From Pyruvatibacter mobilis (GTDB lineage: Bacteria > Pseudomonadota > Alphaproteobacteria > CGMCC-115125), in the NCBI RefSeq assembly GCF_012848855.1, contig NZ_CP051630.1, positions 2,087,501 to 2,151,500 on the forward strand: DNA of 64,000 nt, in the 5' to 3' direction. The position numbers were made by a program, and so were the translations under genes. The notes below the pieces were generated by a model that saw nothing but the letters and a program-made list of their open reading frames with translations, did no database searches and was not told the origin of the DNA. Positions 5,974 through 42,306 of the stretch are shown piece after piece (positions within the stretch are counted from its first letter, which is position 1; each line of letters starts with the position of its first letter).

Positions 5974-7908
5974 TCAGGCGCGTTGGGGCGCTGTGTCGCT
6001 CACGGTTTCCGCCACGCCAAGGGCCGACATCGCGGTTGCGACGATGGCTGCCCTGTCGAGGCCCGCTTCCGCATACATGACGCCGGGCTTGTCCTGATCG
6101 ATAAAGCGATCAGGCAGCACCATGGGCCTGATTTTCAGCCCCCGGTCAAGCCGCCCGCTCATCGCGAGATGCTGCAGCACATGGCTGCCGAAGCCGCCGA
6201 CCGACCCTTCCTCGATGGTGATGAGCACCTCATGGGCATCCGCGAGGCGGTTGATAAGATCAATATCCAGCGGCTTGGCAAAGCGCGCATCCGCCACGGT
6301 GGCGGACAGGCCATGGGCGGCAAGATCATCGGCAGCGGCCAGGCATTCGGCCAGCCGGCCGCCAAGGCTGAGGATCGCGATCTTCGAGCCTTCACGCAGC
6401 ACGCGGCCCTTGCCGATCTCGAGCATTTGCCCGCGTTCCGGCATGTCCACGCCCATGCCCTCCCCGCGCGGATAGCGGAAGGCGATGGGCCCCTCGTCAT
6501 AGGCTGCCGCCGTGCGCACCATGTGGACCAGCTCGGCCTCATCGCCTGCGGCCATCACCACGAAGCCCGGTAAAGTGGACAGATAGGTGATGTCGAACGC
6601 GCCTGCATGGGTCGGCCCGTCGGCGCCCACAAGGCCCGCCCGGTCAATGGCAAAGCGGACGGGCAGCTTCTGGATCGCCACGTCATGCACCACCTGATCG
6701 TAGGCGCGCTGCAGGAAGGTGGAATAGATCGCGGCAAATGGCTTCATGCCCTCGGTCGCCAGCCCCGCTGCAAATGTCACCGCGTGCTGCTCGGCGATGC
6801 CCACATCGAAGCTGCGCTCGGGGAAGCGTCCGGCGAAGATATCAAGCCCGGTGCCGCCGGGCATGGCCGCATTGACGGCGACGATCCGGTCGTCTTCCTC
6901 GGCTTCCGTCACCAGCGCATTGGCAAACACCTTGGTATAGGCAGGCGCGTTGGCCTTGGCCTTTTGCTGAGTGCCGGTAATGACGTCGAACTTCGACACG
7001 CCGTGATATTTGTCCGCAGCCGCTTCCGCTGGGGCATAGCCCTTGCCCTTCTGCGTCACCACATGAATGAGGATCGGCCCGTCCTTGGCGTCCCGCACAT
7101 TCTTCAGTACCGGGAGCAGATGGTCGAGATTGTGCCCGTCGATGGGGCCCACATAATAGAAGCCCAGCTCCTCGAACAATGTACCGCCGGTCGCCATGCC
7201 GCGGGCATATTCCTCGGCCCGCTTGGCGGTGGTTTCCAGCGTGCGCGGCATCTTCTCCGCCAGCTGGCGGGCGAAATTGCGCAAGGTCCGGTAGGACGAC
7301 CCGGAAATGAGCCGCGCCAGATAGGCCGACATGGCGCCCACCGGCGGGGCGATCGACATGTCGTTGTCGTTGAGGATGACGATCAGGCGGCTGCCGAGCG
7401 CGCCTGCATTGTTCATCGCCTCATAGGCCATGCCGGCGGACATGGCGCCATCGCCGATGACGGCGATCACGTTGTTGTCGCGCTGTTTCAGGTCGCGCGC
7501 CACCGCCATGCCGAGACCGGCTGAAATCGACGTCGAAGAATGCGCCGCGCCGAAGGGGTCGTAGCCACTCTCCGCCCGTTTGGTGAAGCCCGATAGCCCG
7601 CCGCCCTGGCGCAGGGTGCGGATGCGGTCGCGGCGGCCGGTGATGATCTTGTGCGGGTAGCACTGGTGGCCCACATCGAAGATCAGCCGGTCATCGGGGG
7701 TGTTGAACACATAGTGGATGGCGGTGGTCAGTTCGACCACGCCAAGCCCCGCACCCAGATGCCCGCCGGTTTCGGAGACAGCGGCGATGGTTTCAGCACG
7801 GAGTTCGTCTGCGAACTGGCGCAGGTCTTTCTCTGACAGCGCGCGGAGGTCGGCGGGGACCGTCACCCGGTCAAGAAGCGGGGTTTTGGCAGGCAGGTGA
7901 TCGGCCAT
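5974..7908 (-). CDS. dxs: 1-deoxy-D-xylulose-5-phosphate synthase
   Basis: First enzyme of the MEP isoprenoid pathway (pyruvate plus glyceraldehyde-3-phosphate to DXP), ThDP-dependent. I place the start at the ATG giving [15 protein letters not shown] (644 aa, usual length); an upstream in-frame start has no support. Visible motifs are [14 protein letters not shown] near the N-terminus, [12 protein letters not shown], the ThDP/Mg motif [18 protein letters not shown], and the transketolase catalytic-Glu region [17 protein letters not shown]. The window also contains part of ispE and a polyprenyl synthase, so three isoprenoid steps are encoded here. It lies between xseB and tlyA in the conserved order. 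Confidence 0.96.
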
Positions 7909-8058
7909 GAGGGTCTCCCGGGATGCGCGCGCTTTCAGCCCCCCTTGCCGCATTTGCGTAGGGGAATGCTTGAAGGCTCACGCCTTTTGCGCATGGAATC
8001 AAGGTGGCCCGGCGCGCGGTGGCGGCTCCGGGGTCAGGCGGGCTGGCAAAAGCGGGGG

Positions 8059-8078
8059 AAAAGCCCTGTTTTCGGGCC
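8059..8078 (-). terminator. Weak terminator-like hairpin after xseB
   Basis: Read on the minus strand, GCCC (from 8077) and GGGC (to 8063) pair around a 7-base loop and are followed by TTTT. The stem is only 4 bp and the next gene, dxs, is on the same strand, so it may be inactive or give only partial termination. Confidence 0.25.
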
Positions 8079-8082
8079 GGGC

Positions 8083-8340
8083 TCAGTCGTCGTCCATATG
8101 GGCGGCGGCGGTGCCGGCGGGCGCGCCGTCGGGGCCGAGGCTGATCTTTTCGACCTTCATCTCGGCTTCCCGCAGCTTGGCCTCGCAATGGGCCTTCAGC
8201 GCCGTGCCGCGCTCATAGACCTCGATGGACTTTTCCAGATCTACGTCGCCGCCCTCGAGCTGGCTGACGATGCGCTCAAGTTCCTCGAGCGCCGCCTCGA
8301 AGGAGAGTTTCTTGATATCGGCGGGGATCTTGTCGGCCAT
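8083..8340 (-). CDS. xseB: Exodeoxyribonuclease VII small subunit
   Basis: Small subunit of the ExoVII single-strand DNA exonuclease; the large subunit XseA is not in this window. The 85-aa reading starts at [20 protein letters not shown]. It shows the family core [32 protein letters not shown] (given here in pieces: [29 protein letters not shown]), which forms two helices. The C-terminal tail is alanine and acid rich. The longer upstream in-frame extension is rejected because it runs into the neighbouring gene and lacks family similarity. It lies between the HDAC-like gene and dxs. Confidence 0.92.
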
Positions 8341-8371
8341 GTGAACGTGTCCTGTGGGCGGGCTTTGAGGG

Positions 8372-9301
8372 TTACGCTGCCATGAGGGCGCGCAGATGGG
8401 CTGCCGTGGCGCTGCCCAGCGCATCCAGATCATAGCCCCCTTCAAGTAGCGATATGAGGCGGCCTTCGCAATGGCGGGCTGCAACGGCGCAGAGCTGCTG
8501 CGTCATCCAGGCAAAGTCCTCATCCGTCAGCTCCATCTGCGCCAGCGGGTCTGCCAGATGTCCGTCAAAGCCTGCGGAGATGATGAGCAGCTGCGGGGCA
8601 AACCTGTCCAGCGCCGGAAGGATCTTCTCCTCATAGGCGGCCCGCATCATGGCACCATCCGCGTGCGGCGGCAGGGGCACGTTGAGGATGTTGTCGGCCA
8701 CTCCCGTCACGTCAGCAGCACCGGTGCCCGGATAAAGCGGGTGCTGGTGGGTGGATGCATAAAACAGCGTCGGCTCGTGGAAGAAGGCGGCTTCCGTGCC
8801 GTTGCCGTGATGCACGTCGAAATCGACAACCGCCACGCGCTCAAGCCCGTGCACCGCCTGGGCGTGGCGGGCGGCGATGGCGGCATTACTGAAAAAGCAG
8901 AAGCCCATGGCGGTCTCGGGCTCTGCATGGTGGCCCGGCGGGCGCATGGCGCAGAAGACGTTGCGCGCATCCCCGGCCATCACGAGATCAACCGCCTGCA
9001 CGGCTGCGCCCGCGGAGAGGTGGGCTGCAGTCAGCGTGCCCGGCGCCATCACCGTGTCCGCATCGATGAAGCTGTAGCCGTCCTGCGGCACGGCCTCGTC
9101 CATGGCGGCCAGATGGTTGTGCGGGTGGACGCGAAGAAGCTGGTCGCTCGTCACGGGCCGGGCGCGCAGGCGCGTCAGGGCGTCGAACTCGGGCCCATCG
9201 AGGGCCGACAGCACGGCGGCGATGCGGGCCACGCGCTCGGGGTGTTTCTCCGGCGGGGCGTGCAGGTCGCAGTCGGGGTGGGTGATCAGCGCTGTTGTCA
9301 T
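8372..9301 (-). CDS. Histone deacetylase family (class II-like amidohydrolase)
   Basis: A zinc amidohydrolase of the HDAC/acetylpolyamine amidohydrolase fold. Bacterial members deacetylate polyamines, acetoin-related or other small acyl amides; the substrate is unknown here. The 309-aa protein starts at [14 protein letters not shown]. It shows [20 protein letters not shown] (catalytic His pair), [14 protein letters not shown] (zinc-binding Asp and His) and [13 protein letters not shown] (second zinc Asp region). It is the first gene of the minus-strand xseB-dxs-tlyA run, as in many alphaproteobacteria, and its start codon is 111 bp from that of the divergent transporter. Confidence 0.9.
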
Positions 9302-22127: not shown

Positions 22128-22730
22128 TCAATTGATCGGGATGTTCTGGTTGGCGTAGGCCTGTTCGCACTGCTTGTAGAGCTCGGTGCCGACCGTCAGC
22201 CCCTCCTGCTCGTTGCAATATTGCAGGGCTTCCCAGAAATGGCCGGGGCGGGAAAACTCCTTCAGCTTCTGCTCGTGCGGCAGGCTGTCCCAGTAATCCT
22301 GCACATCCTTGCGGACGCTTTCATCAACGCAGACAAGGCGGCCGAACTGGTCCGTCTGCCCCCGGGCCACGCATTCCTCCGACGGCCCACGGAAGCTGCC
22401 GTCGGCGTTCCACTGGCTTGCATTCTGCTGCCAGCTCTCGGTGCGTTCGGCAACGCAGGCATCGCTCTGCGGTGTGCCGGCGCGGAAGCCCAGATAGTCG
22501 CAATAGATGACTTCACGCCAGTTTTCGAACTTGGATTCGAACAGGCTCTGCTTGAAGTAATCCGGCATCCGGCCCCACCAATTGTCGAAGCGCTCGCGCT
22601 CCGCCGGGCCGAGGGTGGTGAGGAAAGCCTGAAGCTCGGCGGTGTAGTCCCCGGCGGCTTCGGCCTTCGTCGGAAGGGCTGTGAACAGCATCGCCATGAC
22701 GGCGAACAGACACGTCGCAAACCTGGTCAT
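22128..22730 (-). CDS. Secreted protein, paralog of the next gene, family unknown
   Basis: The 200-aa product has a signal peptide (MTRFATCLFAVMAMLFTALPTKAEA). The mature part has DNWWGRMPDYFKQSLFE and a Cys/aromatic block: CDYLGFRAGTP, a second Cys about 5 residues on, a stretch with Trp, NADGSFRGPSEECVARG and GRLVCVDE. The same block occurs in the product of 22796-23242, so the two are tandem duplicates. It adds about 60 residues at the C-terminus with one more Cys pair (QYCNEQEG, KQCEQAY). AAGGAG seven bases upstream supports the start. Four to six Cys suggest a disulfide-bonded periplasmic or outer-surface protein. Confidence 0.75.
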   Translation of the reverse strand: MTRFATCLFAVMAMLFTALPTKAEAAGDYTAELQAFLTTLGPAERERFDNWWGRMPDYFKQSLFESKFENWREVIYCDYLGFRAGTPQSDACVAERTESWQQNASQWNADGSFRGPSEECVARGQTDQFGRLVCVDESVRKDVQDYWDSLPHEQKLKEFSRPGHFWEALQYCNEQEGLTVGTELYKQCEQAYANQNIPIN

Positions 22731-22795: not shown

Positions 22796-23242
22796 TCAGT
22801 TGCAGATGAGACGGCCCCATTTGTCGGTCTTGTTGCGGGCGAGGCATTCCTCCGACGGGCCCCTGTAGCTGCCGTCCGGGTTCCACTGGTCAGCGGATGC
22901 CATGCGCTCCCGGTACTCCCGCTCGCGGCACTCCACGCCCTCCGGCGTGCCCATGCGGAAACCGAGATAATCGCACAGCACCGTCGGCCGCCACTTGGCC
23001 AGCGGCAGGCTGCGCAGTTCGGTCTTCATCTTTTCCGGCGCTTTCGACCACCAGTCCTCGAAGCGGTCCGCCGGGATGGTCATCTCGGTGGCAATGTCTT
23101 CCAGCGGATAGGGATAGGTCTCGGCATGTGCGGGCGTGACGGCAAGCTGGACTGCCAGCAGCGGCAGTACCGCGGCGACGGCCCACGTCTTCATGCCCGT
23201 CATGATCCTGCGGGCGGCACTCGAACGTATACGGGAACTCAT
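22796..23242 (-). CDS. Secreted protein, paralog of the preceding family member
   Basis: The 148-aa product has an export signal (hydrophobic WAVAAVLPLLAVQLAV, cut after AHA near residue 40). The mature domain has DWWSKAPEKMKTELR, CDYLGFRMGTPEGVEC, NPDGSYRGPSEECLARN and a terminal GRLICN. These blocks align one for one with the product of 22128-22730, but this copy lacks the C-terminal extension. AGGAGG ten bases before ATG 23242 decides the start over internal Met codons. The two genes are 65 bp apart on the same strand, likely one transcript. No known family is recognised. Confidence 0.75.
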   Translation of the reverse strand: MSSRIRSSAARRIMTGMKTWAVAAVLPLLAVQLAVTPAHAETYPYPLEDIATEMTIPADRFEDWWSKAPEKMKTELRSLPLAKWRPTVLCDYLGFRMGTPEGVECREREYRERMASADQWNPDGSYRGPSEECLARNKTDKWGRLICN

Positions 23243-24271: not shown

Positions 24272-26392
24272 CTAAAGCCGGGCGGCGAGGTCCACGGCGC
24301 GGGCAAGCTCGCCCGGGCTCACCTCCCCCATCAGCACCTTGCGCACGCCGTCCTCGGCCAGGGTCTGGAAGCCCTTGGAAGCGGCAGCGGCACGCAGATC
24401 GGCGATGGGCGCGCCCTCGGCGATGAGGTCGTTCATGTCATCGTCGATGTTGAGCACCTCGGAGATCACCGTGCGGCCCCGATAGCCGGTGGACCGGCAG
24501 GAGGGGCAGCCATTGGGGTGATAGACCGTGGGCCGGTCCGTCGGATCAAGGCCGAAGATGAAGCATTCATCGGCACTCGCCAGGCGGGATTGTTTGCACA
24601 CGGAGCACAGGCGGCGCACAAGGCGCTGGGCCATCACCGTGGTGATGCGCCCGGCAAGCTGGCGCGGGTCATCGACCATGCCGATCAGCTCGATCAGGGC
24701 TGCAAGGCTGTCCGGGGCATCCATGGAGGTCATCACCAGGCGGCCGGCGGAGGCGGCATTGGCAAGCGACCGGGCGGTGGCCCCGTCCTCGATCTTGTCG
24801 AACAGGAGAACATCCGGGTCCTGGGCGATCACGTCGTCGATCAGGGTTTCCGGATTGTTGGCCTGCGCCGTCGTCACTTCGAGCTGGCTGACCAGCGGCA
24901 GCCGGTAGCCGATGCGGCGCTCGACGGTGAAGATGGAGCGCTCGGCGGCCTTCATCTCGCCCAGCATGCCGTAAAGCGTGGTGGTGCGGCCCGAGGCGCG
25001 GCCACCGGCAACGACGATCATGCCCGAGGGGCGCACCAGCGAGCGCAGCACGAGGGCTGCGGAATGGTCGGACAGGCCAAGCTCGCCCAGCGACATGGGA
25101 TCGCGCGCGATCTCGCCGAGGCGGATCGTCATGCGCTCACCATTGAGCGTATCGAAGGTTTTGAGCGCGCACAGGAAGATGCGGCCGCCCAGGCGCATGG
25201 TGAATTCACCCGGCTCGGAGCCTTCCTGGTGTGCCGCCGTCGTGTCGCCGAGACCGGCAATGGCACGCAGATGGGCTGCCACCGGCGCCCAGAAGCGCTT
25301 GTCGATGGAGGATGACTGCTGCATGGCGCCATCCACCCGGTAGCGCAGGCGCACATAGCCATTCACCGGCTCGAAATGGGCATGGCTGGCCCCGGCGCGG
25401 ATCGCATCGAGCAGGGCGGCGTTGACGAGGCGCACCGCCGGGTCGGTCCAGACGGTGGCGTCGGCGCCGCGGGCTTCGCTGCCGCGCGCCAGCCCTTTGA
25501 GGATGCGTTCGGCGGACATCTCGTAATCGAGCACCGCTTCGATGGTCTCAGCCAACGCCGCCTTCGGCCAGAAGCACGGCTCGATGCGCGTGCCGGCGGG
25601 AAGATAGGGGCGCAGCAGTTCCACCTGGTCGATCTCGCGCGGATGCGACAGGGCCACCATGATGGCACCGCCGCCGCGTGATACAGGCAGGGCCTGCGCG
25701 GTGCGGATCAGGTCTTCCGGGGCGAGCTTGATGGCCTCGGGGTCGATCAGTGTGTGCAGCGGGTCATGCGCTGAGGTGATCTCCACCGACGCGACTTCAT
25801 CTGTGAACAGATCAAGGTCGGACAGGATCTTGCCCAGCAGCTTGTGCGGGTTGCGCTCCTGTTCGGCGATGGCGGTGTCGAGGCCGCGGCGCGTCACATA
25901 TCCCAGTTCCACCAGGCGTTCGCCAAGCGGGCGCTGCATGTCGCCGAGAGAGGCCATGGTCGGGCGGCGGCCTGAATTGTCGGCCTTCGCCACTTCCTCG
26001 GCGATGGCGGCGTCGGTGACCTTGAGGGTCGGGCCGGCACGGCCTGCACCTTCGGGACGCGCTGCGGCGGGCCGGGCGGCGCTGATCGGCGTCACGCTGG
26101 CACCGGCGATATCGGCAGGCTGTGCGCCACGCTTGGGCGCGGCACCGGCGGAACGGATCAGCCGTTCGATGCCCAGATCAACCTCGTCAGGGCTGTCCTG
26201 CTCGGCAAAGCCATCCGCCTCGCCTTCAAGGTCGAGGCCGAGGTCATGGATGTTGAGGGTGGGCTTGGCGGCATCCCGGGGAGCGGTTGCGTCAGCGCTG
26301 GCAGCCTCTGCCGCGCTGTCGCCGGGCGCAGCCGTGTCGGGCTTGTCCGCCCCGCTCTTGCCATTCTTGTTACGGCCGAAGGTCATGTTCAT
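24272..26392 (-). CDS. GspE/PilB-like secretion ATPase homolog with degenerate catalytic motifs
   Basis: The 706-aa protein has a low-complexity Ala/Asp N-terminus, an MshEN-type domain (RPLGERLVELGYVTRRGLD), then the GspE core: linker SHAHFEP, VRLRYRVDGAM, and the C-terminal Cys pairs CSVCK and CPSC with RGRTVISEVL. The ATPase signatures have changed. Walker A reads GGRASGRT (Arg for Lys, against GPTGSGKT). The Asp box reads TVERRIGY (against TVEDPIEY). Walker B reads FDKIED (against GEIRD). The His box reads TSMDAP (against STLHTN). Catalysis is therefore doubtful. No pilus or type II secretion genes are nearby. The start is placed at MNMTFGRNKNG; the open frame continues upstream without support. 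Confidence 0.87.
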   Translation of the reverse strand: MNMTFGRNKNGKSGADKPDTAAPGDSAAEAASADATAPRDAAKPTLNIHDLGLDLEGEADGFAEQDSPDEVDLGIERLIRSAGAAPKRGAQPADIAGASVTPISAARPAAARPEGAGRAGPTLKVTDAAIAEEVAKADNSGRRPTMASLGDMQRPLGERLVELGYVTRRGLDTAIAEQERNPHKLLGKILSDLDLFTDEVASVEITSAHDPLHTLIDPEAIKLAPEDLIRTAQALPVSRGGGAIMVALSHPREIDQVELLRPYLPAGTRIEPCFWPKAALAETIEAVLDYEMSAERILKGLARGSEARGADATVWTDPAVRLVNAALLDAIRAGASHAHFEPVNGYVRLRYRVDGAMQQSSSIDKRFWAPVAAHLRAIAGLGDTTAAHQEGSEPGEFTMRLGGRIFLCALKTFDTLNGERMTIRLGEIARDPMSLGELGLSDHSAALVLRSLVRPSGMIVVAGGRASGRTTTLYGMLGEMKAAERSIFTVERRIGYRLPLVSQLEVTTAQANNPETLIDDVIAQDPDVLLFDKIEDGATARSLANAASAGRLVMTSMDAPDSLAALIELIGMVDDPRQLAGRITTVMAQRLVRRLCSVCKQSRLASADECFIFGLDPTDRPTVYHPNGCPSCRSTGYRGRTVISEVLNIDDDMNDLIAEGAPIADLRAAAASKGFQTLAEDGVRKVLMGEVSPGELARAVDLAARL

Positions 26393-26797
26393 GACGCCCC
26401 CACATTCCTGCACCGGTACCCTGCCGGACAGACCGGCAGGCTGGCGGCCCGCACCTATGGCAGGGCTGCCCTCAAGACGAACACAGTGCCGGGCGGCGTG
26501 GCGCGTGGTGTGGCTGGCCTGATCCCGGACACTTGCGGATTCATTCAAGACTGAAAATGCAAGTGCCGGGCCGATCCCCTTGCTGGTCAGCCCGCGCCGG
26601 GTTCCCCGTGCCCGGCGCAGGCAGCCTAGCAGCAAAGACGGCTTTTTCGCCAGCGGCTTAGCTGGTTAACGCCCAAAAGGCGGCAACCCGGCAGCGCTGA
26701 GGCGGCCGGGCTGCACGAGGTGCGCATGAAAGGCACGAAACGTCCGCGCGGCAGCCCCTGGAACAGGGAGTGTCACGTTTTCGGACGGCGGGGCCGG
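26393..26797. other. Intergenic stretch, 405 bp
   Basis: Upstream of the GspE-like gene and downstream of the ThDP-enzyme gene (both minus). I see one hairpin, CCTGCCGG (26420-26427) with CCGGCAGG (26433-26440), close to the GspE-like start, and no convincing gene or sigma70 promoter. The region probably holds the GspE-like promoter. Confidence 0.5.
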
Positions 26798-32175: not shown

Positions 32176-33948
32176 TCAGCGGGCCGACAGGACCTCTTCC
32201 ACCGGGCCGTCCGCCGGGACGCCGAGCATGTGATGCTGGTGCCAGAGGGCGAAATAGAGCAGCAGCCAGGCTGCCTGGCCGTCATGCTTGGCCGGTGTGG
32301 TCGTGAGGCCCGCAAACAGCGCTGCCACGCGCTCGGCATTGCAGAGTTCGGTAACGCCGGGCTGGCGGGCCACAAGCGGCGCCAGCCGCGCGCCGCGCCC
32401 GGCGATCCACTCACCGACGGGCACGGTGAAACCGCGCTTGCGGGCGAAGGGTTCAGCCTCCGGCAAGTGCTTTGCCAGCCAGGCGCGCAGCAGGTGCTTG
32501 CCGATGCGGCCCTTGAGCTTGAGGTTGTCCGGCAGGCGGTAGGCGATGTCTGCGACTACCGGGTCCAGCAGCGGCGTGCGGCCTTCCAGGCTGTGGGCCA
32601 TCAGGCAGCGGTCAAGCTTGATGAGCAGATCATTGGGCAGCCAGTCGGCGCAATCCACTGCCTGGGCGCGCTGCAGCCGCGTGCGACCGCCGATGGCGGA
32701 TTTGTTCCAGGCGGACATGATGCCGTCGCGCCAGGCGGGCGCCTCGTTGCGCAGGAGCTTGAGCCCATCGAGCGCGCCGCGGGAGCGCATGGCCCGGCCG
32801 CCGAGCCAGGTGGGGCGTGTCACGGCGCGGTAGCGGCCATAGCCTGCGAACAGCTCGTCGCCCCCCTCCCCGCACAGCACCACTTTCACGTCCTGGGCGG
32901 CGACGGATGCCAGCTTGTAGGTGGGGATGATCGCATAATCCGCCGTCGGATCATCGGTTGAGGCAACCATTGCGGGCAGGAGCGACCAGAAATCCTCCTC
33001 GGTGACATCGATGCTCTCATGGTCGGCACCGGTGGCGGACGCCACGCGGGCTGCGTGCTCCCGCTCGTCGCGCACGCGGGTGCCCGAGAAACCCGCCGTG
33101 TAGCATTTGACCGGCTGATCGTTCAGCCGCGCCATGCAGGCGAGGATGACCGAGCTGTCGATGCCGCCGGAGAGGAACATGCCATAGGGCACGTCCGACC
33201 GCTGATGCACGCGCACGCTGTCGATCAGCGCGTCTTCAAGCATCACGATCGCATGTTCTTCGCTTTGCGGGCGCGGGCCTTCAGCGGGCAGCGCGTGGCG
33301 GCGGTGACGCTCCAGCACGCGGCCGCGCTCGATCACCAGCGTTTCGCCGGGCAGCACGCGGCAGATGTGACGGAAGGCGGTTTCGCGGCCGGTGGTGAAC
33401 TGGAGCTGCAGCAATTCGCCGATGGCCGGGCTGTTCATCTCAGGTGACACGAGCCCCGTGGCCAGCAACGCCTGCGGCTCGGACGCGAAGATGAACCCGT
33501 GGCCGGTCTCGGCATAGTAGAGCGGCTTGATGCCGAAGGGATCGCGCGTGAGCATCAGGCGCTCGCCGTCCGGGTCATAGAGCGCAATGGCATACATGCC
33601 CCGGAGGGCGTCAGCAAAGCGCACCCCGTCGCGGCGGTAGAGCTTCAGCGGCGGCTCGCAATCGGAATGGGTCTTGAAGCCTGCCTCGCCAAGCTCCCGG
33701 CGCAGCTCGAGATAATTGTAGATCTCGCCATTGGCGACGAGCGCCAGGCCCTCATCGTCAAACAAGGGCTGGTCGCCGGTTTCAAGGTCGATGATCGCCA
33801 GCCGCGTCTGCATCAGGCCGGTGGCGCCGGAGACGAAGCTCCCCTCCCCGTCCGGACCGCGATGGGTCAGGGCGTCGGACATGGCGTTGAGCACCGTCAT
33901 CGACGGCGCCTGCCCGCTGGTGGTCTGCATGCCTGCGATGCCGCACAT
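32176..33948 (-). CDS. Glutamine-hydrolysing asparagine synthase family amidotransferase
   Basis: The 590-aa protein begins MCGIAG, so Cys2 is the nucleophile of the class II glutaminase domain (about residues 1-210, with RLAIIDLETGDQPL and ANGEIYN). The synthetase domain carries the PP-loop FLSGGIDSS (about residue 260), CGEGGDELFAGYGRY and LLDPVVADIAYRLP. It could be AsnB for asparagine synthesis, but it lies directly after two glycosyltransferase genes on the same strand. Relatives in such loci modify sugar acids in surface polysaccharides, so that role is an alternative. Confidence 0.88.
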   Translation of the reverse strand: MCGIAGMQTTSGQAPSMTVLNAMSDALTHRGPDGEGSFVSGATGLMQTRLAIIDLETGDQPLFDDEGLALVANGEIYNYLELRRELGEAGFKTHSDCEPPLKLYRRDGVRFADALRGMYAIALYDPDGERLMLTRDPFGIKPLYYAETGHGFIFASEPQALLATGLVSPEMNSPAIGELLQLQFTTGRETAFRHICRVLPGETLVIERGRVLERHRRHALPAEGPRPQSEEHAIVMLEDALIDSVRVHQRSDVPYGMFLSGGIDSSVILACMARLNDQPVKCYTAGFSGTRVRDEREHAARVASATGADHESIDVTEEDFWSLLPAMVASTDDPTADYAIIPTYKLASVAAQDVKVVLCGEGGDELFAGYGRYRAVTRPTWLGGRAMRSRGALDGLKLLRNEAPAWRDGIMSAWNKSAIGGRTRLQRAQAVDCADWLPNDLLIKLDRCLMAHSLEGRTPLLDPVVADIAYRLPDNLKLKGRIGKHLLRAWLAKHLPEAEPFARKRGFTVPVGEWIAGRGARLAPLVARQPGVTELCNAERVAALFAGLTTTPAKHDGQAAWLLLYFALWHQHHMLGVPADGPVEEVLSAR

Positions 33949-33989
33949 ATCTCGTCGTCAGCCTGTCTGTTTTCGGGGGATCGGCCGCA

Positions 33990-35021
33990 TCAGCCGCGCC
34001 GTTCTTTTACCTGTGCGAAGAGCGAAAGGTAACGCTCAAGGCAGGCGGATTGGGAAAATTCGGCTTCGACGCGGGCGCTGCCTGCCGCAACCAGCCGGGC
34101 TGCCAGCGTGTCGTCGTTGCGCAGCCGTGCAATGGACGCTGCCACCGCCTCGGCGTTGTTCTTGGGCACCAAGAGCGCGTCCTCGCCGTCGCGCACCAGC
34201 CATGCGGGGCCCGTCGCATCCGCCGTCACCACCGGCGTGCCATGGGCCCAGGCGGCGATGATGACGTTGCCGAAAGGCTCCGTGCGGGAGGGAAAGACGC
34301 ATATGTCGGCGGTGCGCAGCAGCCGGCCGGGGTCATCCCGCCAGCCGAGCCAGCGCACCCGGCCGTCAATGCCCAGGTCACGCGCCTGCTGGCGCAGTTC
34401 CGCCTCCAGCGGTCCGGCCCCTGCGATCCACAGCCAGGCACCGGGCGTCATGGCGAGCGCATCCAGCGTCACATCAAATGCCTTGGCGTCATGCATCCGC
34501 CCCATGGCGAGCAGCAGGGGTGCGTCATCGGGGGTTTCGAAATCAGCGCGCGCAAGCGGCGGACGCGGATCAATCGGGGTGAAGTTGGGGATGAAATGCA
34601 CCGTATCCGGATCAAACCCGCCTTCGGTCAGATAGCGAACAAGGTCCGGCGTGTTGCACACCTGGGCATCGAACCCGCGGAACGAGCTGAGATTGTAATA
34701 GCCGCCATGGCGCGCGATGCGCGCATAGTCACCTTCGGGCGTCGCGCGGGCCGCGCGGCCCATCCAGGCCAGCACGATGTCGGCCTGCATGTCCTTTGCC
34801 ATGCGGCGGATGGTGCGCGGGGTGGTGAAGTCCAGCCAGCGCTTGAAGGGCACATCCGCGTGGCGCACGCCTGCCTGATCCAGCAATTGCCCGCGCGCCT
34901 CATTGGGGCGCATCACGGCCCGGCTGTCATGGCCGGCCTCCTGCAGGGCGATGGCCAGATCGACGAAGAAGCGCTCCGCGCCGCCGACCGGGCCGCCGGC
35001 TATGGTGTGGAGGATGTTCAC
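33990..35021 (-). CDS. Glycosyltransferase family 4 (GT-B fold)
   Basis: The 343-aa protein has the GT-B layout. The N-terminal acceptor domain starts HTIAGGPVGGAERFFVDLAIAL (Gly-rich loop). The C-terminal GT1_4 domain has LLAMGRMHDAKAFDVTLDAL, the strand WLWIAGAGPLEAELR, and the donor-binding E-x7-E region SRTEPFGNVIIAAWAHGTPVV. It probably transfers a hexose or similar residue to LPS core or another polysaccharide; the specificity is unknown. Its start overlaps the stop of the GT9-GT2 gene by 4 bases (ATGA), and asnB-like follows 41 bp later. Confidence 0.9.
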   Translation of the reverse strand: MNILHTIAGGPVGGAERFFVDLAIALQEAGHDSRAVMRPNEARGQLLDQAGVRHADVPFKRWLDFTTPRTIRRMAKDMQADIVLAWMGRAARATPEGDYARIARHGGYYNLSSFRGFDAQVCNTPDLVRYLTEGGFDPDTVHFIPNFTPIDPRPPLARADFETPDDAPLLLAMGRMHDAKAFDVTLDALAMTPGAWLWIAGAGPLEAELRQQARDLGIDGRVRWLGWRDDPGRLLRTADICVFPSRTEPFGNVIIAAWAHGTPVVTADATGPAWLVRDGEDALLVPKNNAEAVAASIARLRNDDTLAARLVAAGSARVEAEFSQSACLERYLSLFAQVKERRG

Positions 35022-36778
35022 GCGGGCCCGTCTCCGCCCGGCGTCTCGTCCTCGCGGTAAACCTCCGGCTCCAGTGTCGCCTTGAGCCAGGAGACGATGG
35101 GGTAAAGCCCTGCCAGCATGCCGACGAGGAAGCCATAGCCGCCTTCGCGGTAGCCCTTGCGGCGCACATAAGCCTTGTAGAAGCGCGACGGAATGCGGCG
35201 GATGTTGCGGCGCAGGGTTTCCTGCTGCGCCTTGCCGGACGAGATGAGGTCACGGGCATTGGCCGTCGTGTAGCGGTCGAAGCGCGCCAGCATGTCGCTG
35301 ATGTTCTCGTCCACCAAATGATCGACGCGGGTCTCCAGCATGCCGAGACGCGGACCCATATCGAGGGACGGGTGCACGCGCTGGCGGCCCCAGCGCTTGG
35401 CCCCGCGGGCAAACAGGCGCGGGGCGGCGCTGGCCCCGATATAGGCACCCCAGCCATAGCGCACCCGCGTTGCGCCCACGTAATTGTCGAACTGGATGAG
35501 ATAGACGCCCGGCGGCGAGGCCTGGGTGACGGCGCTGATTTCGCGCGCCAGTGCCTCGGGCACCCGTTCGTCCGCATCCACCTCAAGGATCCAGTCGCCC
35601 TTGCAGGCGTCGATGCCCGCATTGCGGCGGTCGCCCTCGATGGGCCAGCCCCCTTCGATGATGGTGTCCGCCCCCGCCGCTTCGGCGACAGCGCGGGAGT
35701 TATCCGTACACCGATCAAGCACCACCACGCGCTCATCGGCGAAGGACAAGGCGTCGAGGCAGGCCTTGAGGTTGTGTTCTTCATTGTGGGCAACGGTCAG
35801 TGTGGAGAGCCGGGGTGCCGTCGCCTGACCGGTCACCTTCTCCCACAGCGCTTTCGCGGCCACATGGGCCTTGTCCACGGTGAGGCCTGTCATCTCGCTT
35901 TTTGAGGAGCGGAAATCGTATGTCGGGCTTGAGATGATTTCGTCAAAGCTCCGCGGCCCGCGAACGCTTGCCCCCTTCGGCCCCCACGGGCCGTAGCGGT
36001 CTTCGGGGCTGGGGCCGAACAGGCCCAGCGTCGGCAGGCCGACGGCGGCTGCCATGTGCATGGGGCCTGAATCATTGCCGACATAGAAGTCCGCCCGCTC
36101 CAGGCAGGCGGCTGTCAGCGGCAGGTCGGTCTTGCCGACAAGATCTATCAGCTGCGCGTCAGGGATCGCCTCGATGACCGGCAGGGCCGCGTCGCGCTCG
36201 CTGGCTGCGCCGATCAGCATGACGCGGGCACCGGGCAAAAAGCCGTCCGGACCCGTAATGCGCCTGATCAACTCGATGAAGCGCGCGGCGGGCCACATCT
36301 TGCCGCCCCAATTGGCGGTGGGGCCGACGGCAAGCACCTTGCCGCCCTCCGGCACCAGCTCGGCCGCCTTTGTGCGCGCCTCCCGCCCGGTGGCGAGGCG
36401 CGGCACCGGCGGCGGGGTCAGGCCCATCACGGTGGCGATATGGGGCACGCGGTGGAGCGATGTGTCCTGCCGCAGCACCCGCCGCTCCCTGGCGCGCAGC
36501 GAATAGGAGATGAGCGACGCCCGCAGGTCGACCACCAGGTCCCATTTCGTGCCGCGGGTCTGCTTCCACAGATCGATCCAATGGCCGGACCGCTTCTGCT
36601 TGGGCATCTCGATGATGCGGGTGACGCCGGGCTGGTCGCGGAACAGGGTGGCGGCGGCGGGGCCGCAGGCGACCGTGATCTCGGCCTCGGGGTGCCGGTC
36701 GGCCAGCCAGGAGAGCACGCCGCTCGACAGGACGGCGTCGCCGATGCGGTTATAGGTGACGAAGAGAATGTGCTTCAT
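35018..36778 (-). CDS. Bifunctional glycosyltransferase: GT9 (heptosyltransferase-like) fused to GT2
   Basis: One 586-aa frame holds two enzymes. Residues about 1-330 are a GT9 domain (MKHILFVTYNRIGDAVLSSG, PTANWGGKMWPAARF, VGNDSGPMHMAAAVGLPTLG). From about residue 340 a GT2 domain starts (LSTLTVAHNEEHNLKACLDA, VVVLDRCTDNS, DWILEVDADERV with the DxD-like motif), ending in a helical, basic tail. Separately, such enzymes add heptose and another sugar to LPS core. The GT2 half resembles the WaaE/KdtX group. The gene heads a polysaccharide operon with GT4 and an AsnB-type amidotransferase, and diverges from ygfZ. Confidence 0.87.
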   Translation of the reverse strand: MKHILFVTYNRIGDAVLSSGVLSWLADRHPEAEITVACGPAAATLFRDQPGVTRIIEMPKQKRSGHWIDLWKQTRGTKWDLVVDLRASLISYSLRARERRVLRQDTSLHRVPHIATVMGLTPPPVPRLATGREARTKAAELVPEGGKVLAVGPTANWGGKMWPAARFIELIRRITGPDGFLPGARVMLIGAASERDAALPVIEAIPDAQLIDLVGKTDLPLTAACLERADFYVGNDSGPMHMAAAVGLPTLGLFGPSPEDRYGPWGPKGASVRGPRSFDEIISSPTYDFRSSKSEMTGLTVDKAHVAAKALWEKVTGQATAPRLSTLTVAHNEEHNLKACLDALSFADERVVVLDRCTDNSRAVAEAAGADTIIEGGWPIEGDRRNAGIDACKGDWILEVDADERVPEALAREISAVTQASPPGVYLIQFDNYVGATRVRYGWGAYIGASAAPRLFARGAKRWGRQRVHPSLDMGPRLGMLETRVDHLVDENISDMLARFDRYTTANARDLISSGKAQQETLRRNIRRIPSRFYKAYVRRKGYREGGYGFLVGMLAGLYPIVSWLKATLEPEVYREDETPGGDGPA

Positions 36779-39481: not shown

Positions 39482-39728
39482 GGGCAGTCCTTGAAGTCGG
39501 GAGAAATCAGACGGTTTCAGGCGGCGAAACGGCCCGGCGGCCGGGCTGCAGCGGATGGGAGTTCACCAATGAAGGCGGCTTGCGCTGGCATGACCAGACC
39601 GCTTCCCTTAAATTATCCCATTAAGCGACGCGGACCAGCGGCCGCCCGGTGTTTTTGCGGGTGCGTGCAGGTTCGCGCGGGGGATTGGGACGAGAGACAC
39701 GCCGCTTCGGCCCTATGGCGGCCAGGAA

Positions 39729-40874
39729 GTGCGACATAATCAGGTGGTAGGTTTGACCAAAGTTGTCATCAGTGGAACCGGCGTCTTCACGCCTTCGGAA
39801 GCAATCACCAATGAGGAGCTGGTTGAAGCGTTCAACACCTATGTGAAGAACTTCAACGCAGCCAACAAGGACGCGATCGACCGCGGCGAGGTGGAAGCGC
39901 TTTCGGAATCGAGCGTGCCCTTCATCGAGAAGGCGTCGGGCATTCAGCAGCGCTTCGTGATGAACAAGGACGGCATTCTTGATCCGGAGATCATGGCCCC
40001 GCGCCTGCCGGAGCGCCCGAATGAAGAACCGTCGATCCTCGCCGAGATGGCGGTGACCGCCGCGCGTGACGCGCTGAAGCAGGCGGGCAAGTCCGCCAAG
40101 GACGTGGACGCGGTGCTGGTGGCCTGCTCCAACCTGCAGCGCCCCTACCCGGCGATCGCCATCGAGGTGCAGGACCTTCTGGGCATTGACGGGTTTGCCT
40201 TCGACATGAACGTGGCGTGTTCGTCCGCCACCTTCGGCATCCAGCAGGCCTATGACATGATCCGCTCCGGCTCGGCCAAATGCGTACTGGTGACGAGCCC
40301 CGAGATCTGCACCGGCCATCTCAATTTCCGCGACCGCGACAGCCATTTCATCTTCGGTGACGTGGCAACCGCCGTTGTGGTGGAAAATGCCGAGACGGCA
40401 ACGGCGGAGCATCCGTTCGAAATCATCAGCACCCGTCTCAAGACGCAGTTCTCGAACAATATCCGCAACAATTTCGGCTTCCTGAACCGCACCGCGCCTG
40501 AGGGCATCGGCGCCAAGGACAAGCTCTTCGTGCAGGAAGGCCGCAAGGTGTTCAAGGAAGTGGTGCCGATGGTGTCGGCGATGATCCTCGAGCACATGGC
40601 GGACGAGAATATCGGCAACAACTCGCTCAAGCGCATGTGGCTGCACCAGGCCAATGCCAACATGAACGACCTGATCGGCAAGAAGGTGATGGGCCGGTCG
40701 CCGTCGGAGGCCGAGCAGCCGAACATCCTGAAGGACTATGCCAATACGTCCTCCGCGGGCTCGATCATCGCCTTCAACAAGTTCAGCGAAGACCTCGACC
40801 CCGGCGATGTGGGCGTGATCTGCTCCTTCGGCGCGGGCTATTCCGCCGGCAGCGTGCTGGTGCGGCGCGTCTGA
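39729..40874 (+). CDS. Beta-ketoacyl-ACP synthase III family protein
   Basis: A thiolase-fold condensing enzyme with the FabH triad: Cys in NVACSSATFGIQQAY, His in WLHQANANMND, and Asn in YANTSSAGSI. At up to 381 aa it is longer than FabH (about 320), like the FabH-like proteins of the KAS III family that condense acyl-CoA starters or act in specialised lipid synthesis. The start is uncertain: GTG at 39729 is the longest, GTG 39744 and TTG 39753 are alternatives. The TTG would give the usual MTKVVISGTG start. A strong terminator follows. Confidence 0.88.
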   Translation: MRHNQVVGLTKVVISGTGVFTPSEAITNEELVEAFNTYVKNFNAANKDAIDRGEVEALSESSVPFIEKASGIQQRFVMNKDGILDPEIMAPRLPERPNEEPSILAEMAVTAARDALKQAGKSAKDVDAVLVACSNLQRPYPAIAIEVQDLLGIDGFAFDMNVACSSATFGIQQAYDMIRSGSAKCVLVTSPEICTGHLNFRDRDSHFIFGDVATAVVVENAETATAEHPFEIISTRLKTQFSNNIRNNFGFLNRTAPEGIGAKDKLFVQEGRKVFKEVVPMVSAMILEHMADENIGNNSLKRMWLHQANANMNDLIGKKVMGRSPSEAEQPNILKDYANTSSAGSIIAFNKFSEDLDPGDVGVICSFGAGYSAGSVLVRRV

Positions 40875-40896
40875 CGGTGACTGCCCGCACGAACGG

Positions 40897-40926
40897 AAAA
40901 GCCCCGGACAATGTCCGGGGCTTTTT
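40897..40926. terminator. Rho-independent terminator after the KAS III gene
   Basis: AAAAGCCCCGGAC (40897-40909) pairs with GTCCGGGGCTTTT (40913-40925) around a 3-base loop, with more T bases following. It is 23 bp after the stop. Confidence 0.93.
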
Positions 40927-40944
40927 GTTTGAGCTCGCTGTGGC

Positions 40945-40981
40945 GAGAGAGACCCTCCGGCTTGACCGGAGGCTCTCTCTC
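40945..40981. repeat. Solo hairpin of the REPIN-like family, copy B
   Basis: GAGAGAG and CCTCCGG on the left pair with CCGGAGG and CTCTCTC on the right around CTTGA. It has the core and the outer GAGAGA arms of elements A, C and D but only a single hairpin. It lies between convergent gene ends, next to a terminator. Confidence 0.75.
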
Positions 40982-40995
40982 CACCCGCACAGCAC

Positions 40996-41364
40996 TTACG
41001 GATAGGGCCGCACGGCGACAACGCGGAAGGTGTGCATCTCGCCGTCGCTTTCGGTGATGGACACATACTCGCCTTCGGCCAGCTTGTGGCGGTCGAGCTT
41101 GAACAGCAATTCGTCGTCCTCGTCGTCGGACTTGTCGTAATCGAACTTCCAGCCCTTGCCCACATGGCGCAGATGGCCGCGCAGATCGTCCTCGTCCTTC
41201 CAGAACCGGTGGACGGTGCAGTCTTCCTTGTGGTTCTTCCAGGCTTCGGGGTCGAGCTGCATGTCGCCGTCGAGCGGCACGATGAATTCATAGCCGCACT
41301 CGGACGATCCGTCCGGGTACTGATCGCTGCGGGCGACGTGCAGGTGAACGCGGTAGAGCGCCAT
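40996..41364 (-). CDS. Conserved-looking hypothetical protein, acidic
   Basis: The 122-aa cytosolic product (no signal or membrane segment) starts MALYRVHLHVARSDQYPDG. It is rich in acidic residues, especially DKSDDEDDELLFKLDRHKL, and ends EMHTFRVVAVRPYP. Several His and Trp residues are spread along it (KNHKEDCTVHRFWKD, GHLRHVGKGWKF). I do not recognise the family; codon use matches its neighbours, so I take it as a real gene. It precedes no obvious partner; the universal stress gene upstream on the same strand is 75 bp away. Confidence 0.72.
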   Translation of the reverse strand: MALYRVHLHVARSDQYPDGSSECGYEFIVPLDGDMQLDPEAWKNHKEDCTVHRFWKDEDDLRGHLRHVGKGWKFDYDKSDDEDDELLFKLDRHKLAEGEYVSITESDGEMHTFRVVAVRPYP

Positions 41365-41439
41365 GGGTGATTGTCCTTCTTGCAGAATGTTGCGGCAGGT
41401 GCCCGCCGGGTGACCCGGCAGGCGGATTGCCGGACGGGC

Positions 41440-42306
41440 TCAGTGTGCCATGAGCACCGGGATGGTGGCATGCGACCGGATGTGGCGGGTGACGCCGCCC
41501 AGCACCAGCTCACGCAGGCGGGAGTGGCTGTAACCGCCCATCACCAGCAGGTCGCCCTGGAGGTTGGTGGCTTCGGCCAGCAGCACTTCGCCGGTGTTGC
41601 GGTTGTCTTCCGGCACCAGGTGGATCTCGGCGGTGACCGTGTGCAACGCCAGATATTCCTGCAGGGCGCGGGCGCCGGGTGCATCGCTGACACCGTCCTC
41701 ATCGACGCAGACGATGGTGACCTTTTCAGCGGAGACGAGGAACGGCATGGCGGCGGTGATGGCGTTGGCGGCTTCGCCGCTTTCATCCCAGCCGATGACA
41801 ACGCTGGCGCCCACATCCGCCGGGGCCTGCTGCGGAGCCAGCAGCACCGGGCGGCCTTCGGCCAGCATGCAGGTTTCAAGGGCGTTGGGGCCGGAGGCCT
41901 GGTCGCGGGCACCGGCATCGGCAACGATGACGAGGTCGGCCAACCGGCTTTCCCCCGCGATCACGTCAACCGCACGGCCCGACTTGATGCGCATGCGCGC
42001 GGTGGCGGCATCGGCGCGCACCTCATCGGTGATCTCGACGCCTGCGGCGCGGGCGGCTTCTTCGGCCTCCTTGCGGCACTGGTCCTCGGCGCTGTCGGCG
42101 GCCTTGCGGGCGGTCTCGATGATGTCCTCGACGACGGGGCCGGAAATGCCTTCGCCCAGATAGGGCAGCGCGTCGGTCGGGTTGGGACGCACGAAGAGAA
42201 TGTCCGCCTGGGCGTGGAAGCGCTTGGCGAGGGACAGGCCCATGGTCAGCGACGCCGCGTCGGAGGCGGAGCCGTAAAGCGGGCACAGAATGCGTTTGAT
42301 GGACAT
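41440..42306 (-). CDS. Universal stress protein, tandem USP domains
   Basis: The 288-aa protein consists of two USP domains. The first (MSIKRILCPLYGSASDAASL) lacks a clear nucleotide loop. The second, from about residue 165 (ASVVIGWDESGEAANAIT), ends with the ATP-binding pattern GGYSHSRLRELVLGGVTRHI (G-2x-G-9x-G), followed by the typical IPVLMAH. The nucleotide probably binds in the second domain. Role: stress survival, details unknown. It is upstream of the 122-aa hypothetical gene on the same strand. Confidence 0.9.
   Translation of the reverse strand: MSIKRILCPLYGSASDAASLTMGLSLAKRFHAQADILFVRPNPTDALPYLGEGISGPVVEDIIETARKAADSAEDQCRKEAEEAARAAGVEITDEVRADAATARMRIKSGRAVDVIAGESRLADLVIVADAGARDQASGPNALETCMLAEGRPVLLAPQQAPADVGASVVIGWDESGEAANAITAAMPFLVSAEKVTIVCVDEDGVSDAPGARALQEYLALHTVTAEIHLVPEDNRNTGEVLLAEATNLQGDLLVMGGYSHSRLRELVLGGVTRHIRSHATIPVLMAH

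Follow-up and report, generated by a model that had tools for sequence, protein, structure and literature searches.

The window, by which we mean the whole stretch of 64,000 nucleotides analysed here, encodes on its minus strand, at 24272-26392, a 706-residue protein whose translation is free of stops and which has the architecture of the PilB/GspE/MshE motors. Its ATPase motifs are altered, and the locus therefore raises the question of whether it is a motor gene in decay or a pseudo-ATPase kept for a purpose of its own and, if so, for which one. A preliminary description of this DNA had proposed the latter, with a structural or regulatory role. The gene and its main parts are as follows:

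24272..26392, minus strand: whole gene, putative orphan pseudo-ATPase of the PilB/GspE/MshE family, 706 residues (open frame; Pfam T2SSE and MshEN)
25943..26392, minus strand: N-terminal tail, residues 1-150, weakly conserved and predicted to be disordered (identity and AF2 pLDDT)
25517..25756, minus strand: MshEN globular part, residues 213-292 (Pfam match)
24305..25444, minus strand: T2SSE part (N2D and C-terminal ATPase), residues 317-696 (Pfam; Foldseek to PilB/GspE, TMt at most 0.78)

Both Pfam matches lie above their cut-offs, with E values of 2.6e-62 (211 bits) for T2SSE and 7.7e-7 (29.5 bits) for MshEN, while the curated NCBIfam equivalogs remain far below theirs (TIGR02538 PilB, 255.7 versus 675.65; TIGR02533 GspE, 253.7 versus 630.25). 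An alternative, longer frame opens at TTG 26635, which is probably not the true start because, upstream of a conserved M-x-M-T-F, part of the window sequence is deleted in related genomes. Further upstream, at about 26657-26669 (minus strand) and some 265 bases from the start codon, we observed a TTAACCA-x-CTAAG block common to the four genus sequences, whose TTAACCA part we take to resemble a CtrA half-site. The tail of the window gene is 42-47% identical to those of the other members of the genus, contains the short conserved pieces LNIHDLG and GIERLIRSAG, and has an AF2 pLDDT mostly below 45. The AF2 model as a whole, built from 16 sequences, has a PilB/GspE fold at modest confidence (mean pLDDT 61, pTM 0.49), and we used it for fold and helix order only. 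In Foldseek, its best match was GspE 4pht (E 5.4e-28), and the ATPase region gave TMt values of 0.78 to PilF 5oiu and 0.76 to PilB 5tsg.

All the motifs quoted in the preliminary description are found in the translation, and we confirm that the four ATPase motifs are altered, next to an intact zinc site:

24980..25006, minus strand: Walker A, GGRASGRTT, residues 463-471 (family GPTGSGKTT); identical in 4/4 genus genomes
24905..24928, minus strand: Asp box, TVERRIGY, residues 489-496 (family T[LIV]EDP[VI]EY), Glu491 kept (homolog alignment)
24785..24814, minus strand: Walker B, DVLLFDKIED, residues 527-536, Lys533 in place of the catalytic Glu (homolog alignment)
24713..24748, minus strand: His box, AGRLVMTSMDAP, residues 549-560, both His gone (R551, D558) (homolog alignment)
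24497..24607, minus strand: zinc tetracysteine CxxCx29CxxC, residues 596-632, intact in 4/4 genus members

The strings originally pointed out span residues 463-470 (GGRASGRT), 531-536 (FDKIED) and 555-560 (TSMDAP). The two CxxC pairs that had been described as kept are C596/C599 and C629/C632, 29 residues apart. According to passages of PMC5061722, EpsE has the same CxxCx29CxxC spacing and cannot do without zinc binding, by which its hexamer is stabilised. In an alignment of 45 homologs, the four genus members have GGRASGRTT and TVERRIGY, with G-E changed to D-K in Walker B and AGR...TSMD in the His box. The four intact motif patterns are each matched by 41/41 homologs from the class outside the genus (duplicates L002, L036, L039, L040 and L043-L050 left out of the count), so that the substitutions, absent from all 41 and identical in the four genus genomes, are conserved in a clade. 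These 41 homologs share 101 positions at a conservation of 85% or more. All four genus members keep the family residue at 59 of these positions, and all four lack it at 39; the losses include the Lys of Walker A, the Gly and the Glu of Walker B, the two His of the His box, the TGH Thr and an arginine finger. With 59 positions kept and 39 lost, the altered motifs are not a matter of chance.

In order to relate these changes to function, we mapped the residues of Geobacter PilB by hand on the alignment, with roles taken from passages of PMC5424180. The catalytic E395 becomes K533, H413 becomes R551, H420 becomes D558 and T411 becomes A549, besides the replacement of the Walker A Lys by Arg (R469). 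Regarding the arginine fingers, R271 is lost (A/S409) and R286 is kept as R424 by the same hand mapping. Also kept are the Mg-binding E357 (E491), T470 and T471, and R455 (R593), which in those passages serves the nucleotide-free interface. Pore loop 1, which holds D398 and E400 in PilB, is variable inside the genus. From these residues we infer that the protein does not hydrolyse ATP; weak nucleotide binding would still be possible, R424 and E491 being kept.

The N-terminal region had also been described as kept. MshEN domains hold c-di-GMP via two 24-residue half-sites, according to passages of PMC5013675, and both can be located here:

25859..25930, minus strand: c-di-GMP half-site 1, residues 155-178, RLG changed to PLG, remainder kept including the final Gln (half-site comparison)
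25769..25840, minus strand: c-di-GMP half-site 2, residues 185-208, destroyed by R to L, G to D, L to A and Q to A (half-site comparison)

Against the two-half-site pattern RLGxx..G..LxxxLxxQ, the first copy misses its Arg and the second is destroyed, and this comparison rules out an intact c-di-GMP receptor. A Pro at the same position of half-site 1 is found in homolog L015, yet its ATPase motifs are intact. Half-site 2 is three residues shorter in genus member L009. Because half-site 2 is lost, AF2 predicts no second helix there and the NCBIfam c-di-GMP motif NF053729 reaches only 31.7, below its cut-off of 38, the domain has kept its fold and not its ligand site, and it is to the fold alone that the earlier statement applies.

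Regarding conservation, our genus sample comprises four genomes with only three distinct sequence groups, since L007 and L008 are 98% identical. A search of GTDB contigs added one match, from Candidatus Phaeomarinobacter, 76% identical in its best segment and on the same contig as L009; passages of PMC4110880, a paper in which a term search gave no pilus words, associate this candidate genus with brown algae. The frame is open and the altered key residues are invariant in 4/4 genomes. For the closest pair, L007/L008, the ATPase domain has a dS of 0.44 and a dN of 0.005, with 4.5 non-synonymous against 99.5 synonymous changes, so the dN/dS check proposed at the outset gives a value near 0.02; the 79 codons around the motifs present 0 non-synonymous and 21 synonymous differences. 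Between the three groups, ATPase domain identity is 88-91% and synonymous change is saturated. Excluding the closest pair, the motif windows (86-90% identical between groups) are not better conserved than the domain and, with pore loop 1 variable as well, not every face of the protein is under constraint. The genes surrounding the locus follow the same order in G001, in G003 and on the short contig L036. The conservation and the dN/dS rule out a decaying pseudogene. It had been reasoned, too, that close homologs keeping the Walker A Lys would point to such decay; the nearest that keep it are at most 38% identical. A kept fold, lost catalytic residues and purifying selection, the marks of a pseudoenzyme, are thus found together. 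Pseudoenzymes exist in many families, and these data support reading the protein as a conserved pseudo-ATPase, as was first proposed, instead of a pseudogene.

We found no closer pseudo-relative outside the genus among 142 relatives and 385 class genomes (overlapping sets), nor among 398 phylum genomes, 72,556 plasmid records, viral contigs and GTDB contigs, in searches at E<=1e-60 for the class and E<=1e-85 for the phylum that scored at most two candidates per genome, so that weaker or second pseudo-motors may escape. For twelve homologs from the phylum (L107-L118), our patterns matched in 12/12 cases at Walker A and at the His box, in 11/12 at Walker B and in 6/12 at the Asp box, as pattern matches only. 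Several of the MshE homologs from the phylum (L108-L110, L112-L114, L116 and L117) have frames of 914-943 residues, some 350 more than usual, which suggests an extra domain.

In a tree of 32 proteins (13 of the 45 homologs left out), the genus members group together (100/100), and the stem leading to them measures 2.37 changes per column, compared with a median end branch of 0.51. To contextualize this value, we built quick trees, whose lengths are rough, for the pseudo-motor and two control proteins, using the same genomes wherever these were available. The stem of the genus was 3.31 changes per column for the pseudo-motor (17 rows, L014 omitted; median end branch 0.48), with another 1.0 on the far side of the midpoint root that cuts it, 0.21 for GlyQ (11 rows; median 0.25) and 0.34 for TadA (15 rows; median 0.29). 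Two partial GlyQ loci, one partial TadA locus and four extra TadA paralogs were omitted from the control trees, and at our threshold GlyQ was absent from 5/18 genomes and TadA from 2/18. The pseudo-motor stem thus exceeds those of the controls about tenfold. Its branches within the genus are short, and together with the long stem they argue for a burst of change followed by constraint. The nearest sampled lineage by both GlyQ and TadA is G231, and its motor (L051) is intact.

The own genome consists of one 3.33 Mb contig. Besides the pseudo-motor, it encodes just two T2SSE proteins, a Tad motor of the CpaF/TadA type (497 residues) and a VirB11-like protein (343 residues), both with GK[ST] P-loops and both labelled by resemblance and gene neighbours. 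No intact GspE/PilB came out of this search, which, with a reading of the two other loci, rules out the active PilB/GspE paralog that had been suggested as a partner. Neither a type IVa prepilin nor a PilC-type platform nor a non-Tad secretin was found in the four genus genomes. Prepilin N_methyl matches are present in 0/4 of them versus 10/10 genomes with an intact homolog. T2SSF matches amount to two proteins per genus genome (335-338 residues), the own-genome pair lying at the Tad locus with the CpaF-type motor; there is one secretin match per genus genome, at the Tad locus in the own genome, and partial and below cut-off in the draft G002 (81% complete). In nine of the ten genomes with an intact motor, by contrast, a T2SSF match begins no more than 300 bases from the motor gene; in the tenth, G305, the nearest on the same contig is some 36 kb away. 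Locus L044 presents, by Pfam, a TPR protein, a second T2SSE motor, a secretin, two prepilins, the motor and T2SSF. A prepilin-like protein of this locus (7763-9076) also gave a weak CBM_5_12 match, below cut-off (E 7.8e-5).

The orphan location noted in the preliminary description held as well: a Pfam scan of 48 other distinct ORFs of the window brought up no pilus or secretion gene. The neighbours are metabolic, with acyl-CoA, TPP-enzyme and transporter genes lying between the pseudo-motor gene and a group at 32179-36778 (minus strand), 6-10 kb upstream, of an asparagine-synthase-like amidotransferase and two glycosyltransferases. G001 and G003 have this group in the same order, and only TIGR01536 passed its cut-off in the window genes, PEP-CTERM/XrtA and LPS models scoring below theirs. 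Besides, we noted two small proteins at 22128-22730 and 22796-23242 (minus strand), which match no Pfam family and keep their order within the genus at 63-71% identity, and a putative 630-residue open frame at 39624-41513 (minus strand) without any Pfam or NCBIfam match. Other MshEN proteins of the genus, as in L119 (2275-4233) and L120 (2662-5025), are glycosyltransferases, one of which lies in G001 near a protein with an NfrA_C domain.

We think it rather probable that the protein is a pseudo-motor domesticated after the loss of its pilus, now acting as a nucleotide-free scaffold or signalling protein. The ancestral protein would have been an MshE/PilB-type pilus-extension motor that outlasted its pilus, the type IVa machine (prepilins, PilC platform, secretin and retraction motor) having been lost in the genus ancestor. 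A phase of fast change would then have ruined the ATP site together with one half of the c-di-GMP site, after which the non-catalytic form may have been fixed, with selection preserving it. The protein would stay apo, as a PilB ring or its subunit, held in this state by the kept zinc fold and by R593, the equivalent of the apo-interface arginine R455, and might offer a constant surface and its flexible 150-residue tail, the best candidate for a partner-binding element, to a partner. Its output would be scaffolding or a permanently 'on' signal instead of movement. The order of the losses, the oligomeric state, the partner and the output are what we infer from the pattern as a whole. A precedent is given by Myxococcus PilB: passages of PMC5544727 report that a Walker A Lys mutant with neither ATPase activity nor pili still signalled exopolysaccharide production, and there, as in passages of PMC11656802, apo PilB is proposed as the signalling form. 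This precedent comes from a distant organism that retains its pilus. More tentatively, a motor stripped of ATP, of c-di-GMP sensing and of its machine could have been recruited as a cytoplasmic scaffold or signalling hub, with the apo conformation as the functional product.

As to what such a protein would act upon, a surface polysaccharide and the Tad pilus are the likeliest guesses, each unlikely when taken alone. By analogy with the Walker A-dead Myxococcus PilB (in the passages of PMC5544727), a permanently apo form might control a surface polysaccharide, a doubtful reading to which the glycosyltransferase and asparagine-synthase-like genes upstream, in an order kept in G001 and G003, and the genus glycosyltransferases with their own MshEN domain lend some weight; the intervening acyl-CoA, TPP-enzyme and transporter genes, and the partly LPS-type looks of the upstream cluster, take from it. 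To an equally limited extent we consider that it regulates the Tad pilus, the last type IV filament left to the genus, by attaching to the TadB/TadC platform or to the CpaF/TadA motor, where it would serve as an inactive subunit or competitor. Apart from the Tad locus, no T2SSF/secretin system was found in the genus, TadA homologs are present in 4/4 genomes, and paired motors acting jointly are documented for other pili in passages of PMC11656802; however, in G000 the locus lies some 583 kb from the pseudo-motor, TadA belongs to a distant subfamily, genomes without the pseudo-motor have TadA homologs too, and pore loop 1, the pore lining in PilB, varies inside the genus.

Two further readings concern the protein itself. 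That it binds nucleotide, or is a weakly active ATPase with an unorthodox P-loop in which Arg stands for Lys, would fit the retention of T470, T471, Glu491 and the arginine finger R424, but the catalytic Glu turned into Lys, the Walker B Gly turned into Asp and the loss of both His-box His and of one arginine finger make it quite improbable. Least credible of all is a functionless relic in slow decay: the long stem branch, the loss of the remaining machine and the variable tail would agree with it, but hardly the open frame in 4/4 genomes or an ATPase domain 88-91% identical at saturated dS with a dN/dS near 0.02.

By comparing the pseudo-motor with known systems, its position in the family can be specified. 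The MshE/PilB type IVa motors (L010, L051 and L011) have the same MshEN, N2D and ATPase order, the tetracysteine zinc site and 35-38% identity; the pseudo-motor differs in that its four ATPase motifs are lost, together with an arginine finger and a c-di-GMP half-site, and in that no type IVa pilus genes were found in its genome. The GspE proteins of type II secretion (EpsE 1p9r; GspE 4pht and 4ksr) are alike in fold and zinc site, whereas the catalytic residues of the pseudo-motor differ and its genome is without a non-Tad secretin or a PilC/GspF-type platform. XpsE (2D27), the GspE of Xanthomonas campestris, presumably serves type II secretion as an ordinary ATPase, unlike the pseudo-motor. 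Key c-di-GMP residues are changed in both, the MshEN domain of XpsE having lost c-di-GMP binding according to passages of PMC5013675. The closest parallel in the laboratory, Myxococcus xanthus PilB K327A (passages of PMC5544727), has likewise lost the Walker A Lys, with no ATPase activity expected and pilus-less signalling possible; the pseudo-motor has instead become fixed in nature, with changes in all of its catalytic motifs and in a genome that lacks the pilus.

Among the matches listed in the open-licence PMC literature, none that we could recognise concerns a naturally occurring pseudo-ATPase in the PilB/GspE family, nor did we find a description of this lineage. PilB signalling has been suspected to be separate from the motor role, and in Myxococcus the two can be separated only by mutants. 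Here, nature appears to have split these roles, with the motor chemistry and the pilus gone and the protein retained. The pseudo-motor would thus offer a clean system for PilB-type function without pilus movement, and a clear example of a machine part turning pseudoenzyme.
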